IMG/VR virus record: IMGVR_UViG_3300036466_000272
Coordinates: 1 to 29,618 of that record
Reading direction: 5' to 3' (one strand)
Source: a virus
Length of the DNA stretch: 29,618 bases
Shown: one piece after another, positions 22,718 to 27,653 of the stretch
How the letters are laid out: every line of letters starts with the position of its first letter
Numbering within the stretch: the stretch's first letter is position 1
The notes under the pieces: model-generated
The model's database searches: none
The model's input: only the letters and a program-made list of their open reading frames with translations
Told to the model about the DNA's origin: nothing
Position numbers and translations under genes: made by a program

Positions 22718-23048
22718 CGGTAGAATCCCGCAATAGTTTGTCGATGCGCTGCTGCAACTGCATGTTTGCAGCAGTGAGTTGTGATTTCGTTTGCTCGTTG
22801 TTTTTGATGGCATCGGCCAATGCGTCACGTTCTGCAATAGCTGCCAGCGTTGCGTCACCAGCGGCAGCCAGTTGTTTAGCCAATCTGTCGGAGTCAGTTT
22901 GTAAAACCTGCTGCGCTGCCTGTGCCGCTTTCAAATCGGATTTTGCCGCTTTCAGGCTGGCGCTCAGTGAGTAACTAACGGCGATAACTACGACCAGCGC
23001 GATAGCCAGCGCAGCGGATAGATATTGCATCAGTTTGTCAGTCAGCAT
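22455..23048 (-). CDS. Rz: Rz-like inner membrane spanin
   Basis: A 197-residue i-spanin. Residues about 9-28 form the N-terminal transmembrane anchor (YLSAALAIALVVVIAVSYSL), followed by a long alanine/glutamine-rich coiled coil (about 30-115) and a periplasmic C-terminus ending near PRPWQM. The start at 23048 overlaps the endolysin stop; the longer upstream frame is out of context. Rz1 is encoded in an alternative frame in its 3' half. Longer than lambda Rz (153 residues). Confidence 0.82.
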   Translation of the reverse strand: MLTDKLMQYLSAALAIALVVVIAVSYSLSASLKAAKSDLKAAQAAQQVLQTDSDRLAKQLAAAGDATLAAIAERDALADAIKNNEQTKSQLTAANMQLQQRIDKLLRDSTDEHTKIWAADYVPDDAVRLLINAADCAEHPNSAGCLRTDSGSADNTVPRNAAGPENYSVPTAKLWPLSFKPGNAVADNEPVPRPWQM

Positions 23049-23556
23049 TTGCCACGGCCTCAGTGCATTTTCTGTTACGTTCCTGCGCCCGAGTCCAAAC
23101 ACCGTAGCAGCGTTTGTTGCCAGGCGTTGAGCAGTCGAAACCCGCGACAGTCCGATACTGCGGTAACAGTAGCGCGTCACATGCGGCGGCGTGGTCGCCA
23201 TTCATCAAACTGAATCTCATAGGTGAGTTAAGCCACCTGCCGATACCGTACTGGTAAATCCAGTCTATATATACGTCATATTCCGCCTGCGTCATTTCGA
23301 CGCCTGGTAGCGAATCGCGGAACCGCTGTTCGTCTGCATAGATATGGGCCTGAGCTGTCTTTAGTGCCTGGACTGGCGTCATCGTATCGCCAAGCTTTAC
23401 CGGCGTTCCGTCAATGTGATAGGTGGAACCGAATCCAGCGGTTGGCCTATCGCCCTGAACTGGGGGCCGAGCAACATCAATCCAGCCCTCTGAGACAACC
23501 AGCGCAATGAATCCAGCGGCTGACAGACTCAGGCTACCAACTGCAAGCTTGCGCAT
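23038..23556 (-). CDS. SAR endolysin (lysozyme-like glycosidase)
   Basis: A 172-residue muramidase with an N-terminal signal-anchor-release segment (LAVGSLSLSAAGFIALVVS, weakly hydrophobic and rich in A/G/S) instead of a cleaved signal peptide. Catalytic E23 is in VVSEGW; D36 and T39 (GDRPTAGFGST) are the likely partners, although the spacing differs from the classical E-x8-D-x5-T. The rest shows TPVQALKTAQAHIYADEQRF and a C-terminal CSTPGNKRCYGVWTRAQERN typical of this subgroup. A CGGAGG site precedes the ATG. First gene after the predicted late promoter and tandem terminators. Confidence 0.9.
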   Translation of the reverse strand: MRKLAVGSLSLSAAGFIALVVSEGWIDVARPPVQGDRPTAGFGSTYHIDGTPVKLGDTMTPVQALKTAQAHIYADEQRFRDSLPGVEMTQAEYDVYIDWIYQYGIGRWLNSPMRFSLMNGDHAAACDALLLPQYRTVAGFDCSTPGNKRCYGVWTRAQERNRKCTEAVANAD

Positions 23557-23782: not shown

Positions 23783-23811
23783 TTGCACATAATTATAGGA
23801 TATCCTATATT
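23783..23811 (+). promoter_or_regulatory. Rightward promoter with palindromic operator
   Basis: TTGCAC (23783-23788), a 17-base spacer and TATATT (23806-23811). A perfect 16-bp palindrome, TATAGGATATCCTATA (23794-23809), covers the spacer and most of the -10, so a bound repressor would block polymerase. Transcription would begin near 23818. The possible CRP site is centred about 71 bases upstream of that point, a known activating distance. It drives the accessory operon containing the Cas8e-like gene. Confidence 0.65.
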
Positions 23812-23841: not shown

Positions 23842-23876
23842 CCGACCCGGCGGGCTCCGGGAATCTGATGAGGATA
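23842..23876 (+). promoter_or_regulatory. Structured leader element, copy 1
   Basis: Hairpin CCCGG-CGGGCT-CCGGG (23846-23861) followed by AATCTGATGAGGATA, which holds the GAGG ribosome site of the gene starting at 23883. It matches copy 2 (24161-24195) at 30 of 35 positions, and four of the five differences keep the stem paired. Confidence 0.7.
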
Positions 23877-23882
23877 CATATC

Positions 23883-24128
23883 ATGAAAATCGAACTGACT
23901 ATCAGCACTCATACTCTAGGCGACTGCAATACTGCTGACGATAACCAACGCTACGCCGCAGCAGTTCAGAAAGAACTCCAATCCGAATACCCTGAAGCAG
24001 ATGTTTCTGTTGAGTTGGTAACGAATGTTACTGCCGGGGATTGCAGAGTCAGTGATGACCCTACTGGTGAGATTGAGGAAGAAGTCGGTATTATCGCCAA
24101 CCGTGTATGGGACAGAGCAGACTACTGA
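23883..24128 (+). CDS. Small acidic accessory protein
   Basis: An 81-residue protein with about 18 acidic and 6 basic residues. It begins MKIELTISTHTLGDCNT, has NQRYAAAVQKELQSEYPEAD in the middle (helix) and VSVELVTNVTAGDCRVSDD (strand), then an acidic helix (GEIEEEVGIIANRVWDR). I do not recognise a family beyond a general likeness to small phage early proteins. The start at 23883 has GAGGAT upstream; an ATG at 23868 lies in the ribosome site itself. First gene of the operator-controlled rightward operon, sharing its leader element with the Cas8e-like gene. DNA mimicry or an anti-defence role is possible but not shown. Confidence 0.72.
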   Translation: MKIELTISTHTLGDCNTADDNQRYAAAVQKELQSEYPEADVSVELVTNVTAGDCRVSDDPTGEIEEEVGIIANRVWDRADY

Positions 24129-24160: not shown

Positions 24161-24195
24161 CCGACTAGGCGGGTTCCTAGAATCTGATGAGGATA
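24161..24195 (+). promoter_or_regulatory. Structured leader element, copy 2
   Basis: Hairpin CTAGG-CGGGTT-CCTAG (24165-24180) then AATCTGATGAGGATA and the ATG of the Cas8e-like gene at 24200. Relative to copy 1 two stem pairs changed on both sides (C-G to T-A and C-G to A-T), a compensatory change that argues for a conserved RNA structure. Confidence 0.7.
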
Positions 24196-24199
24196 AACC

Positions 24200-25345
24200 A
24201 TGAATCTACTCACCGATAGATGGGTGCCATCGCGCACTATTTCAGGGTTTGAACATATTTCGCTGAATGAGGCAATGAGTCGCCCTGTACGTGAAATCCA
24301 AAGTGGCCGTCCTGATTTTGATTTTGCACTGCTGCTATTTGCCATTGGCATCAAACAAACAGGATATAAGCCAGAACCAGTTTTTGGCTCTGGTCCGCGA
24401 TTCTTGCAATCAGATGTAGCTAATGGAAAAGGTCGCTTGATACCCATTGGACAGTTGCTGATTGATGAGCCAGGTGAAAACGCAATTAAACAAAATAGAG
24501 ACTGGTTGTTCAGAGGTAACCAGCGTAACGCAATGTGCACATCCTGTGCAGCGCTGACACTCTATACCCACACAATTTTCGCTGGTCCAGGCGGCCCCGG
24601 TCTGTACCCATCAAATTTGTTTCACTCAGCGCTATATCTCCGCAAATGCAACACTCTCGGTGAAACAGTAGAGGCAAACGTGGTTAATAAAAATATTTCG
24701 CATGAGGCATATTTTTCAGCATTCAATGGATATTGGCTAGAGGAACCACATGGGAATGAACATTGCAAACTCTGTGGGAATATAGGGCCTGTTGTCACGG
24801 GGTTTTATCGCACAAAACTAGGTGCGCAACCTACACCTGCGATCAACCCTCACATGGCTAAAACACGATCAGGAAAGCGATTTTCCGTTAAACCAACAGA
24901 CGGTATTTTGAAAATCGTAGATGGCGCGGCACTAGATAGCACAATCAGTATATCTCCACTAGCTATCGCTGAACGCGCAAAAGTGGGCGATAAAATAATA
25001 GGATTTGGCACATGCTACGACAAAGCAACGCTGACAAGATCTTTTGAACTAGAGTTCATACTAAGATCTGCAATAGATTGGCGCCCGTTACAAAATTGTG
25101 TGCGTAGCATAATGAGCCTACGCATACCTAGAAAATTAGAAATCTCTGATTATGAGTCAACATTAGCTGGGGAAATAAGATCGAACGTTGAGGATATGGT
25201 TTTTAGAGGATCAGAAGAAGTCACTGCCGCGCTAGCTGTATTCGAGATGTACTGCCAAAACCCTGGATATCGAGATCAGCGCAGATATCCAAAATGGAAA
25301 TATTTTCGCAACCAGATAGAGCATGAGGAGGAGCTAGATGTATAA
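24200..25345 (+). CDS. cas8e: Solitary Cas8e/CasA (Cse1)-like protein
   Basis: A 381-residue homologue of the type I-E Cascade large subunit, which reads the PAM and recruits Cas3. It starts MNLLTDRWVPSRTISG, the Cse1 hallmark, followed by ISLNEAM and RPDFDFALLLFAIG. CTSC (C113, C116) in NAMCTSCAALTLYT and CKLC (C189, C192) before VVTGFYRTKLGAQ match the two cysteine pairs of the Cas8e zinc site. The glycine-rich FAGPGGPGLYP is where the PAM-reading glycine loop lies in E. coli CasA. E. coli CasA has 502 residues; this is about 120 shorter, so the C-terminal helical bundle is reduced. No cas3, other Cascade genes or array are nearby. Interfering with host Cascade, or another use, is inference. 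Confidence 0.85.
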   Translation: MNLLTDRWVPSRTISGFEHISLNEAMSRPVREIQSGRPDFDFALLLFAIGIKQTGYKPEPVFGSGPRFLQSDVANGKGRLIPIGQLLIDEPGENAIKQNRDWLFRGNQRNAMCTSCAALTLYTHTIFAGPGGPGLYPSNLFHSALYLRKCNTLGETVEANVVNKNISHEAYFSAFNGYWLEEPHGNEHCKLCGNIGPVVTGFYRTKLGAQPTPAINPHMAKTRSGKRFSVKPTDGILKIVDGAALDSTISISPLAIAERAKVGDKIIGFGTCYDKATLTRSFELEFILRSAIDWRPLQNCVRSIMSLRIPRKLEISDYESTLAGEIRSNVEDMVFRGSEEVTAALAVFEMYCQNPGYRDQRRYPKWKYFRNQIEHEEELDV

Positions 25346-25595
25346 AGTTTATCTAAAAATTTTTAATGAGCATGGCTACTCTCAGGTTGTTAAAAAAAGC
25401 CGTACAACCACACCATCACCGATGGCTGCCGAGGCTGCATTTAGAGAACTGATCTGCAGAGAGGATCTAATAGGGAAAAAAGCCCACGCAGTTTTGTCGC
25501 TGGATAATCGGCAGTTGATGTATCACAGATTTGATCGTTATCCAGGCCAGAAAGATTATGTGGCGCAAGATGCAGAAATAAATCTCTTTTACTGA
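25338..25595 (+). CDS. Small accessory protein downstream of the Cas8e-like gene
   Basis: An 85-residue protein beginning MYKVYLKIFNEHGYSQVVKK with TTTPSPMAAEAAFRELICRE and ending DNRQLMYHRFDRYPG. I recall similar short proteins in enterobacterial prophages but no function. Its ATG lies inside the last codons of the Cas8e-like gene (8-base overlap) with a GAGGAGGAG ribosome site, so it is translationally coupled to it. No cas motif is visible. Confidence 0.72.
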   Translation: MYKVYLKIFNEHGYSQVVKKSRTTTPSPMAAEAAFRELICREDLIGKKAHAVLSLDNRQLMYHRFDRYPGQKDYVAQDAEINLFY

Positions 25596-25611: not shown

Positions 25612-25806
25612 ATGAAAAAAATAAACCCACAGCGTGAGGCAAACCGCCGCCAGGACGAAAAACGACGAAATCAACCCGCATTCCCGCGCACTTTTTTAGA
25701 CGCTGATTCAGCAAAACTGCGTGATCATCTGCTGGAAATTTACGGAACTAATGCTGAGATTTTACGCGCAGGCATGAAACTGCTGGCAGATAAACACGGG
25801 CTATGA
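25612..25806 (+). CDS. Small basic-to-acidic accessory protein
   Basis: A 64-residue protein. The first 25 residues are basic (KINPQREANRRQDEKRRNQP), the rest helical (DADSAKLRDHLLEIYGTNAE, then ILRAGMKLLADKHGL). No recognised domain. The ribosome site is weak, but the stop overlaps the next start (ATGA), and it lies in the same operon as the Cas8e-like gene. Probably real. Confidence 0.6.
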   Translation: MKKINPQREANRRQDEKRRNQPAFPRTFLDADSAKLRDHLLEIYGTNAEILRAGMKLLADKHGL

Positions 25807-26273
25807 GCAATAAAGATGATCTCATTGGCTACCGCCGCGGCAGTTTAGTTGCCACGGCGTTTTCTCGTGGCGGGTTATATGCTGGTCAGCCTGCGAGTTT
25901 TTGGCAATGCCTGTGCGAACGCTGCGGCAGAACGGTTGAGTTCCCACGTGTGCGCATCACTAGCGCTAAAAAATCCCATGGCTGCTGTGATATCTGCTAT
26001 CGCGGCGGATGTTGGGTATGCGGCAGTCCCGTCATCGGCGGTAAAACGATTAGACGTTTATGTTCAGACGAGTGCAAAACGCAGTGGATAGCTAAACGGA
26101 AACGTGAGGCGATATTAGCGCAGAAGCAATCCTCCCCTGATTTCTACGCTGAGCGTTATCAGCGAATGAAAAGCAATCACGCGACAAACGAAACCGCGCG
26201 TGAAAGCTACAACGAATCACAGCGCCGGTCCGCGCTCAAGTATTACTATGCTGTTAGGCGTCATAAAAAGTAA
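25803..26273 (+). CDS. Cysteine-rich zinc-finger-like accessory protein
   Basis: A 156-residue protein with many cysteines in its first half: CLCERC (C36, C38, C41), CCDIC (C61, C62, C65), CWVC (C70, C73) and CSDEC (C87, C91), suggesting two or more zinc-binding knuckles. The C-terminal half is basic and tyrosine-rich (FYAERYQRMKSNH, then KYYYAVRRHKK), fitting nucleic acid binding. It is the last gene of the rightward operon and its start overlaps the preceding stop. It faces the Q gene tail to tail. Function unknown. Confidence 0.7.
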   Translation: MSNKDDLIGYRRGSLVATAFSRGGLYAGQPASFWQCLCERCGRTVEFPRVRITSAKKSHGCCDICYRGGCWVCGSPVIGGKTIRRLCSDECKTQWIAKRKREAILAQKQSSPDFYAERYQRMKSNHATNETARESYNESQRRSALKYYYAVRRHKK

Positions 26274-26277
26274 AAGT

Positions 26278-26361
26278 TGCTCAGGCCGAAAAACCAGACA
26301 GGCCCAATTTTCAAAACATGCTCAGGCCGAAATTTTGAAAAAGTGCTCAGGCCTAAAAGTT
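26278..26361. repeat. Three TGCTCAGGCC repeats between convergent genes
   Basis: TGCTCAGGCC occurs at 26278-26287, 26319-26328 and 26344-26353, the first two followed by GAAA and the third by TAAAA. TAAAAGTT flanks the set (26271-26278 and 26354-26361), and TTTTCAAAA (26308-26316) pairs with TTTTGAAAA (26333-26341). They fill the gap between the rightward operon and Q. Confidence 0.7.
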
Positions 26362-26374
26362 ACCACTTAACTGA

Positions 26375-26950
26375 TTAAGCCACTTCCCGCCATAGTCGCA
26401 TCAACCGCTTGCACTCGCGTTCTGCTTCTCCTGACTCCTGCCATAGCTGGTTCACACAGTCCCTATACTGGTCATAGTACATCTGCGTGAATACATCATC
26501 TGTGACCTCTCTTTGTAGCAGTACTGATATTGTCTGAGCAAGCTCAAGTGACGTTTTTAGTATGTGACCCACTCCATAGCACCGCTTACACAACACTTGC
26601 TTTGCCGAGCCGTTCCAGTTGCTGATATTGTATCCGCGGCCCTTGCACTTCTGACAGATGCGTGTTCCGCAAACTTCATCTACGGCCATCCTTGCAAGCG
26701 CTCTTGCCTCAGGCATTTCTAAGTCATCTTGAAGCAATGCTCTGGTTAGTGTGTCACGCAGCACAAAGGAAGATTGTTCAATACCACCAATGCGAGCTTC
26801 TAGAACTTTAACACCGACCGGAAACTTCCCTTGGGCTTGAGCGATGAGATTCAATGCATCCTCTCTGGTGAATACTCCGCGCCCACTGATAACTTGCAGC
26901 GGCATTCCTCGCGGAGCTGTTAGTAAAAACAAGTTGGCTATTGAAATCAT
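26375..26950 (-). CDS. Q: Antitermination protein Q
   Basis: A 191-residue late-gene antiterminator of the Phage_antitermQ type. The diagnostic part is a DnaJ-like zinc finger, CQKCKGRGYNI then CKRCYGVGH (C99, C102, C121, C124), in the middle of a helical protein with REDALNLIAQAQ and a C-terminal QSGEAERECKRLMRLWREV. Q binds at the late promoter and lets polymerase ignore terminators. I chose the ATG at 26950 with a GGGGGT site; the longer frame overlaps the upstream gene. Its target is probably the promoter at 23668-23696, 2.7 kb downstream beyond the rightward block. Confidence 0.87.
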   Translation of the reverse strand: MISIANLFLLTAPRGMPLQVISGRGVFTREDALNLIAQAQGKFPVGVKVLEARIGGIEQSSFVLRDTLTRALLQDDLEMPEARALARMAVDEVCGTRICQKCKGRGYNISNWNGSAKQVLCKRCYGVGHILKTSLELAQTISVLLQREVTDDVFTQMYYDQYRDCVNQLWQESGEAERECKRLMRLWREVA

Positions 26951-26966
26951 CGTTACCCCCACAAAG

Positions 26967-27653
26967 TTAAAACTTTCGCTCTTTTTCCATTCGGCGCAGA
27001 CATTGTTCAACAGTTTCATTTGGTAGCATGTCGTAACCACAACCTATACACCCCCCTTTCCAGCTACCAGATTCCTCGCCAACCTCATCAGAAAACTCTA
27101 CATCAATACTTCGGCGGCGCTTTTTTAAAAGTGGAAACCACTTGCGATGCCATTGCCAAACCTCTTCAGTGCAAGTGGCTTTGACGTGCTGCTTATCACC
27201 AGAGCGTAGTGTGTATGAGTAATCAAAATCTTCTTTTTTTGTTGTATGGCTATCGAATTTGTAAGGCTCAAAATTGCCATCTACAGTTTTTATGCAGTGG
27301 AACTCAAATACATAGTTTATGAACGGTAAATCCCATCGTTTATAAAGGTGCCCCCATCGCCAGATAAATCCATTTTCAAAATACGACACCCCATAACTAA
27401 GCCATTCACATGACTCAGGTCTGTTGGTTTTAAATGGAATTATTATGTGAAATGCGCCCCATAAAAAGCAGATGTTTATTGAATAGTTCTGGCTAAAGTA
27501 CCCACCTTGGTTCAGCTGAAGTTCTAGTCCAAGCCTAGGCGCGAAATAGCCCCACTTGAAGTCGATTGAATCTTTATTGATGCGCCACATGGTAGTTAGT
27601 TTTGCGAATAAACGCTGTGCCGAGTTAAATTCGTGTTTATAGGTTTCTTTCAT
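26967..27653 (-). CDS. Nin-region protein of unknown function
   Basis: A 228-residue protein rich in aromatic residues (FKWGYFAPRLGLELQLNQGG, FIWRWGHLYKRWDLPFIN) with a basic region (WFPLLKKRRRSID) and a C-terminal CIGCGYDMLPNETVEQCLRR motif with MEKERKF at the end. I recall this ending in several enterobacterial phage proteins of unknown function; the two close cysteines may bind metal. It lies between ssb and Q, is AT-rich, and has a GGGGATG site before the ATG. No enzyme motif found. Confidence 0.75.
   Translation of the reverse strand: MKETYKHEFNSAQRLFAKLTTMWRINKDSIDFKWGYFAPRLGLELQLNQGGYFSQNYSINICFLWGAFHIIIPFKTNRPESCEWLSYGVSYFENGFIWRWGHLYKRWDLPFINYVFEFHCIKTVDGNFEPYKFDSHTTKKEDFDYSYTLRSGDKQHVKATCTEEVWQWHRKWFPLLKKRRRSIDVEFSDEVGEESGSWKGGCIGCGYDMLPNETVEQCLRRMEKERKF

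Follow-up and report, generated by a model that had tools for sequence, protein, structure and literature searches.

A solitary, shortened Cas8e homologue in an exchangeable phage cargo slot as a candidate inhibitor of type I-E CRISPR

Among CRISPR subtypes, type I-E is widespread and has been studied intensively, and the presence of a single gene for a homologue of its large subunit in a phage raises the question of what a virus may gain from one part of this system. The window analysed here, i.e. the whole stretch of 29,618 bp, is a linear fragment of a tailed phage (IMG/VR virus record IMGVR_UViG_3300036466_000272), the nearest terminases to that of the window (66–80 % identity) belonging to phages of Stenotrophomonas, Acinetobacter, Klebsiella and Pseudomonas, among others. 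On its plus strand, an unbroken 381-codon ORF with ATG start and GATGAGGATAAACC just upstream (24200–25345) encodes a solo, shortened homologue of Cas8e (Cse1/CasA) of 381 aa, identified from the ORF, profiles, alignment and predicted fold.

Profile searches assign the protein to Cas8e. Family membership is indicated by Pfam PF09481 (CRISPR_Cse1; 62 bits, E 7.8e-17, cut-off 24.7), next to a match to PADLOC Cas8e (66 bits, E 1.2e-18), and by sequence the homology is far beyond chance. The NCBIfam equivalog TIGR02547 (CasA) reached 32.1 bits (E 5.9e-8); this is below the cut-off of 70 bits and thus marks a Cas8e homologue that the annotation standard would not call a working CasA. With no neighbouring cse2-cas7-cas5-cas6 either, the gene lacks both marks of a functional type I-E Cascade subunit. 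The first-pass annotation had described a Cse1-type beginning, a shortening by about 120 residues and both cysteine pairs of the zinc site; all three were recovered. The N-terminus reads MNLLTDRWVP, the protein is 121 aa shorter than E. coli CasA (502 aa), and C113/C116 and C189/C192 stand at the alignment positions of E. coli C140/C143/C250/C253, which are published as zinc ligands (PMC5965380). Cysteine occupies three of these positions in 69 and the fourth in all of 78 aligned operon relatives, and zinc binding by the window protein is predicted from the aligned cysteines. Likewise in agreement with that annotation, cas3, cse2, cas7, cas5, cas6, cas1, cas2 and regularly spaced repeats were not found in the window. 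No close relative of the protein was found in 50,697 phage records, and among viral contigs the only relative was on L007, which was rejected as a solo since this 191-kb contig bears a complete I-E operon. Those plasmid matches that were opened were ordinary I-E operon Cas8e, and a 387-aa frame (L095) considered as a third solo is an ordinary Cas8e, apparently shortened by an insertion. Comparison of the window with the DNA of fetched I-E loci yielded chance-length matches only.

An AlphaFold2 model, built with an alignment of 45 relatives, has a mean pLDDT of 67, with values near 90 in the N-terminal domain and mostly of 40–60 in the last third. Its base is predicted to adopt the Cse1 fold rather than an unlike one: superposition on E. 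coli Cas8e (4u7u_M) gave Z 22.0 and rmsd 3.3 over 287 residues, and the top 18 structure matches were all Cse1, followed by an unrelated entry with Z 4.7. Among viral protein structures, no match to the model was found. As Cas8e relatives were part of the model alignment, fold and sequence matches do not count as independent evidence.

To which extent the protein departs from Cas8e in operons was assessed with 80 relatives from bacterial and archaeal genomes, 78 operon proteins of which were aligned. All 80 are flanked by other type I-E cas genes, several of the contigs being too short for a whole operon, and complete operon relatives comprise roughly 500–590 aa. When four segments are delimited by the zinc-cysteine and glutamine-wedge anchors, the window protein measures 112/73/83/107 aa and the minima among about 78 operon Cas8e are 139/107/90/148 aa. 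By this measure simple truncation does not describe it, each of the four segments being shorter than in every operon Cas8e compared. The alignment locates the absent parts to about 29 aa near E. coli 63–91 and 33 aa near 199–225; also missing are the strand MPRRIR and, in the C-terminal bundle, about 50 aa. The glycine-rich loop noted in the first-pass annotation is kept in part (GPGGPG), but the positions of G157 and G160 are occupied by P and the RGG continuation is replaced. Comparison of the PAM-reading positions revealed K to be retained at the lysine finger and K (K275) to stand at the glutamine wedge, and the L1 residues F129-Q132 align with W-L-F-R. Overall identity to operon Cas8e is only about 27 %. 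The C-terminal bundle, 107 aa after the wedge versus a minimum of 148, lies outside the hhalign alignment and is modelled, at low confidence, with one long helix and two short ones. In E. coli Cas8e, the L1 segment (129–143) inserts into a Cas5 pore and reads the handle of the crRNA, the Cas7 backbone and Cse2 are contacted by the bundle, and the binding site of Cas3 is located between the bundle and the base (PMC5965380). Projected onto these contacts, the loss pattern indicates that the Cas5/crRNA-facing part is best kept and the Cse2- and Cas3-facing parts least. Pfam family, predicted fold, zinc site, start motif and L1 region are common to the solo and operon Cas8e, which differ in that the solo is phage cargo, has 381 instead of 502 aa (E. 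coli) and misses RGG, FPW and MPRRIR.

The genomic setting is that of cargo. As stated in the first-pass annotation, the gene is located between Q and lysis genes and on the opposite strand to them: the slot is bordered by lysozyme/spanin genes on the left (lysozyme, 23038–23556, minus strand) and a Q-like gene on the right (26375–27040, minus strand), and holds a plus-strand operon of five genes for proteins of 86 aa, Cas8e, 85 aa, 64 aa and 156 aa. Its promoter TTGCAC-17-TATATT (23783–23811, plus strand) has a perfect palindrome, ATAGGATATCCTAT (23795–23808), over the −10 element as a putative operator. A sister contig (L098/L100, 9.5 kb) shares 88 % identity over 5.4 kb of structural genes and both slot edges at about 82 %; at the same place it has the corresponding promoter TTGCTT-17-TATATT with the palindrome ATAGTATATACTAT. 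The change between the two palindromes is symmetric, as expected if a dimer binds. Shuffled sequence is expected to contain about 1.8 perfect 14-bp palindromes, against the two of the window, so that the palindrome alone is not significant and the argument for a putative operator rests on position and symmetric change. On this basis the earlier suggestion of an own operator is supported, its function being presumed. The sister slot carries genes for proteins of 150 aa, a homologue of the 64-aa protein (72 %), a 189-aa helix-turn-helix protein (L098 4546–5115, plus strand) as alternative cargo, 102 aa, 115 aa and a homologue of the 156-aa protein (75 %), and cas8e is absent. The same slot without cas8e marks the gene as exchangeable cargo. 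A cas operon within the same phage family was also looked for; in the only related phage that was found, the slot is free of cas genes.

The companions of cas8e in the operon are small. The first gene encodes an acidic 86-aa protein (23868–24128, plus strand) without reliable family match (a weak one to BrxC reached 16 bits), and an 85-aa ORF (25338–25595, plus strand), absent from the sister phage, overlaps the cas8e stop. The basic 64-aa protein (25612–25806, plus strand) is a putative autoregulator, Aca-like by position; its model has two confident C-terminal helices, and neither a Foldseek match nor a Pfam, NCBIfam, PADLOC or PHROG family was found. At the right slot border, a Cys-rich 156-aa protein (25803–26273, plus strand) is treble-clef-like and matched DUF2116 at 0.001, below cut-off. 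Two 35-bp leader repeats precede the 86-aa ORF (copy 1, 23842–23876, plus strand; inverted repeat CCCGG-CGGGCT-CCGGG) and cas8e (copy 2, 24161–24195, plus strand; CTAGG-CGGGTT-CCTAG), in each case with the inverted repeat followed by AATCTGATGAGGATA and the start codon. Their arms differ by two compensating pair changes (CCCGG/CCGGG vs CTAGG/CCTAG). In RNA folding the copy 1 hairpin forms, and that of copy 2 is not the minimum-energy fold; the repeats are a possible RNA or operator element. A degenerate I-E repeat at 24172–24199 (GGTTCCTAGAATCTGATGAGGATAAACC) was rejected, as it overlaps the ribosome site and the sister leader copy lacks the ATAAACC end; it is further weakened by the existence of several equally loose matches. 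Three GCTCAGGCC(G/T)A motifs lie between the convergent operon end and Q (26265–26355) and also occur in the sister phage.

Beyond the first-pass annotation, a second solo was detected in a self-targeted prophage, and an acr-aca-like anatomy around both. One best match (E 2.8e-17), a 367-codon frame on contig 33 of genome G601, emerged from a search of 395 genomes belonging to a single GTDB order. The protein of 363 aa starts with MLNLLTDDW and has the zinc motifs CLCEACA and ECSLCG. Its segment lengths of 107/72/79/98 aa are all below the operon minima and near those of the window protein; in both solos the RGG and FPW segments are absent and the wedge residue is K. PF09481 scored 17.3 bits with the second solo, below cut-off. 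The two solos align locally over 285 columns (25 % identity, E 9e-22), whereas either one and G601's own Cas8e share shorter alignable stretches only; taken together, they match operon Cas8e in hhalign (99.8 %, E 1.7e-30) over residues 1–288 only. A tree groups the two solos with 87 % SH-aLRT under a long-branch warning, the end branch of the window protein being 3.5 and the Cas8e of E. coli and Variovorax being as divergent from the others. The placement of the window protein in the tree is therefore unsure, and the shared shortening appears to be the better evidence of kinship. No further short Cas8e was found in 382 and 389 genomes sampled from the orders of G003 and G002; with two cases, the solo short Cas8e is rare.

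The second solo is located at the right end of an intact prophage (about contig positions 1–44,700), which is followed by host genes and shows, by names read from the ORFs, the order integrase, repressor, DnaB, terminase, portal, tail and fibre genes, and solo operon. From integrase to far end, the prophage contains no other cas gene. The operon promoter, TTGACT-17-TATAAT, is present in two identical copies and carries the palindrome TGTAGAGCGCTCTACA. Next to the solo, a 69-aa protein resembles the 64-aa protein of the window (27 % over 62 aa, pairwise E 2e-8), and an acidic 65-aa ORF is immediately upstream of cas8e, in a layout like that of the window 86-aa ORF, with which its similarity is not significant. 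The first operon gene, under the same promoter, codes for a 188-aa protein (L116 12069–12635, minus strand; phrog_18108), an alternative anti-CRISPR candidate. About 90 nt past the stop of the second solo lies an I-E-repeat-like solitary unit, CCGTTCCCTATATTAATAGGGATAAACCG (L116 10210–10238, plus strand; 23/29), a candidate Racr whose stem is kept through compensating changes. The prophage also has a mini-array of three host-type I-E repeats (L116 5172–5316, corresponding to G601 contig 33, 37171–37315) with spacers of 32 and about 26 nt and a terminator-like hairpin at the end; the first spacer is identical to a host-array spacer at 27 of 32 positions.

The host of this prophage possesses the system that the solo would be directed against. 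G601 has a complete I-E operon with an intact cas3 (902 aa) and arrays of 29-nt repeats at 61-nt spacing. One I-E repeat occurs in 46 copies over contigs 3, 4, 9, 13, 30, 33, 39, 59, 65 and 70, a dispersal that suggests many separate arrays. Among 37 sampled array spacers, seven match the prophage at E<1e-4, while at the same threshold none matched the 15.3 kb flank, 13.6 kb of other host DNA or the shuffled prophage. A 5'-AAG PAM is present at six of the seven. Two spacers have perfect seeds, one being mismatched at position 25 alone and the other at 29 and 32; a further spacer is mismatched only at position 1, and the others have 2–3 mismatches. Mobile element, intact cognate system and self-targeting spacers, i.e. 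the context that supports an anti-CRISPR, thus coincide for the second solo. Surviving self-targeted genomes repeatedly yielded anti-CRISPRs, silencing of cas being another escape (PMC10810201), and prophage survival could here instead come from silent cas expression. Moreover, G601 may be a metagenome assembly, with strain mixing as a possible source of apparent self-targeting.

Taking these features together, the window solo is, with belief somewhat outweighing doubt, phage counter-defence cargo that acts as a dominant-negative large subunit of the host type I-E Cascade. With the Cse1 base kept (N-terminal domain, L1-aligned region and zinc site), it should compete with host Cas8e for the Cascade tail and would displace it at the Cas5 end. 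With the RGG, the glutamine-wedge position, loops of the Cas3-facing half and a large part of the bundle, which touches Cse2 and guides the displaced strand, apparently lost or replaced, a Cascade with the solo should fail at PAM-dependent R-loop formation or at Cas3 recruitment. Expression would proceed from the strong sigma-70-type promoter, which the small co-encoded regulator would shut down. Cascade binding, inhibition and regulator function are what we infer here. The first-pass annotation had already favoured a decoy, either taking the place of host Cas8e within Cascade or preventing the recruitment of Cas3, and this remains the best supported interpretation, none of the three contrary observations it had named (profile outside Cas8e, fold unlike Cse1, cas operon in the same phage family) having been made. 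Subunit substitution is consistent with the losses, with the occurrence as solos in two unrelated phages, with the I-E system of one host and with the mechanism of AcrIB3. A type I-E target in the host of the window phage is assumed, and about 27 % identity and W-L-F-R at L1 make it uncertain whether the solo would bind Cas5 of a particular host. The anti-CRISPR activity could, in the second prophage, come from the 188-aa protein, the mini-array or the repeat unit instead.

Solitary phage cas genes that antagonise CRISPR, to which the first-pass annotation had alluded, are a known principle (Katz et al. 2024, via the review PMC13131331). According to that review, AcrIB3 is a Cas5 homologue from which one functional part is missing and which takes the place of Cas5 in Cascade, and AcrIB4 resembles the C-terminal domain of Cas8b (PMC13131331). 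Like the solos, both are solitary phage-borne homologues of a Cascade subunit without a functional part; they target type I-B, whereas the solos are homologues of type I-E Cas8e. The review, through which Katz et al. 2024 was considered, names no Cas8e case (PMC13131331), a literature search found no description of a solo Cas8e inhibitor, and a 2024 review considers the recruitment of Cas proteins as inhibitors to be seemingly rare. With AcrIF3 the solos have in common the phage mimicry of a large subunit and a dominant-negative interpretation, but AcrIF3 mimics the Cas3-recruiting Cas8f domain and the solos best keep the opposite, Cas5/crRNA-facing base (PMC11656645). A palindrome inside a strong promoter, variable cargo and a small regulator-like gene connect the solo loci to acr-aca operons; these have a co-encoded DNA-binding repressor, whereas the regulator-like protein of the window is a putative one and matches no Pfam, NCBIfam, PADLOC or PHROG family (PMC9410906). 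Both loci have an inverted repeat in the core promoter, and their regulator-like proteins were recognized by inter-locus similarity and helix pattern. Solitary repeat units can be RNA anti-CRISPRs, including for type I-E, and are often near acr genes (PMC10651486). The I-E-like repeat unit downstream of the second solo resembles such Racr units, a likeness confined to that locus, as the window is without a convincing unit (PMC10651486).

The context evidence would equally suit an anti-CRISPR that works by another route, the solo sequestering Cas3, Cas5e, crRNA 5' handles or Cas1-Cas2, or blocking priming; that homology does not fix the mechanism is illustrated by AcrVIA2, a Cas3-helicase homologue inhibiting an unrelated type (PMC13131331). 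Such a route is nevertheless unlikely, with the Cas5/crRNA-facing N-terminal region and the zinc core kept best and the Cas3-facing loops and the bundle conserved least. It is improbable that the phage Cas8e, in the second prophage together with the mini-array, redirects host Cascade to attack competitors or to use another PAM. The three host-type repeats and the host-like spacer of the mini-array would suit this idea, but the window has no array or repeat-like unit of comparable quality, the losses in PAM reading and bundle count against a working large subunit, and survival of the self-targeting would be left unexplained.

Strong divergence and the poorly modelled C-terminal third (pLDDT mostly 40–60) could also be taken as signs of a captured cas8e in decay, or of a gene with an unrelated, non-CRISPR role. 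This is very improbable: the 381 codons are open and preceded by a good ribosome site, the same reductions recur in a second, very diverged and intact member, and the zinc cysteines are kept in both. The record being a linear fragment, and related terminases belonging to phages of 39–58 kb, the protein might also be the large subunit of a divergent I-E-like system with its remaining genes outside the 29.6-kb fragment, and the equal divergence of E. coli and Variovorax Cas8e in the tree is compatible with this. Still, such a system is extremely improbable, given that 80/80 relatives adjoin cas genes while the window neighbours are unrelated small ORFs, that no cas gene adjoins the second solo, whose prophage is covered from integrase to far end, and that the sister phage is without cas8e altogether.

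Returning to subunit substitution, it is quite possible, albeit with doubt slightly prevailing, that the two solos constitute an undescribed Cas8e-derived anti-CRISPR family of this kind, located in acr-aca-like operons with a new regulator family and once paired with an RNA anti-CRISPR. Should this be true, protein and RNA decoys in the second prophage would attack one complex. Judged by sequence, the new aspect is a distinct, strongly remodelled candidate family that would extend the principle of cas homologues as anti-CRISPRs to type I-E, and the solos are strong candidates for viruses turning a captured CRISPR part against CRISPR. A solo Cas8e makes subunit substitution testable with one plasmid in the best-characterised Cascade, and the self-targeting lysogen represents a natural experiment. 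An active solo would, in addition, amount to a natural separation-of-function Cas8e from which the parts sufficient for docking could be read.

On the other side of the window slot, adjoining Q, a gene for an Acb3-family CBASS inhibitor is located (26967–27653, minus strand; PF25187, E 7e-57), so that the neighbourhood of the solo Cas8e already holds one counter-defence gene. Acb3 homologues with about 52–56 % identity occur in many Vibrio phages and in Thalassomonas phage BA3.
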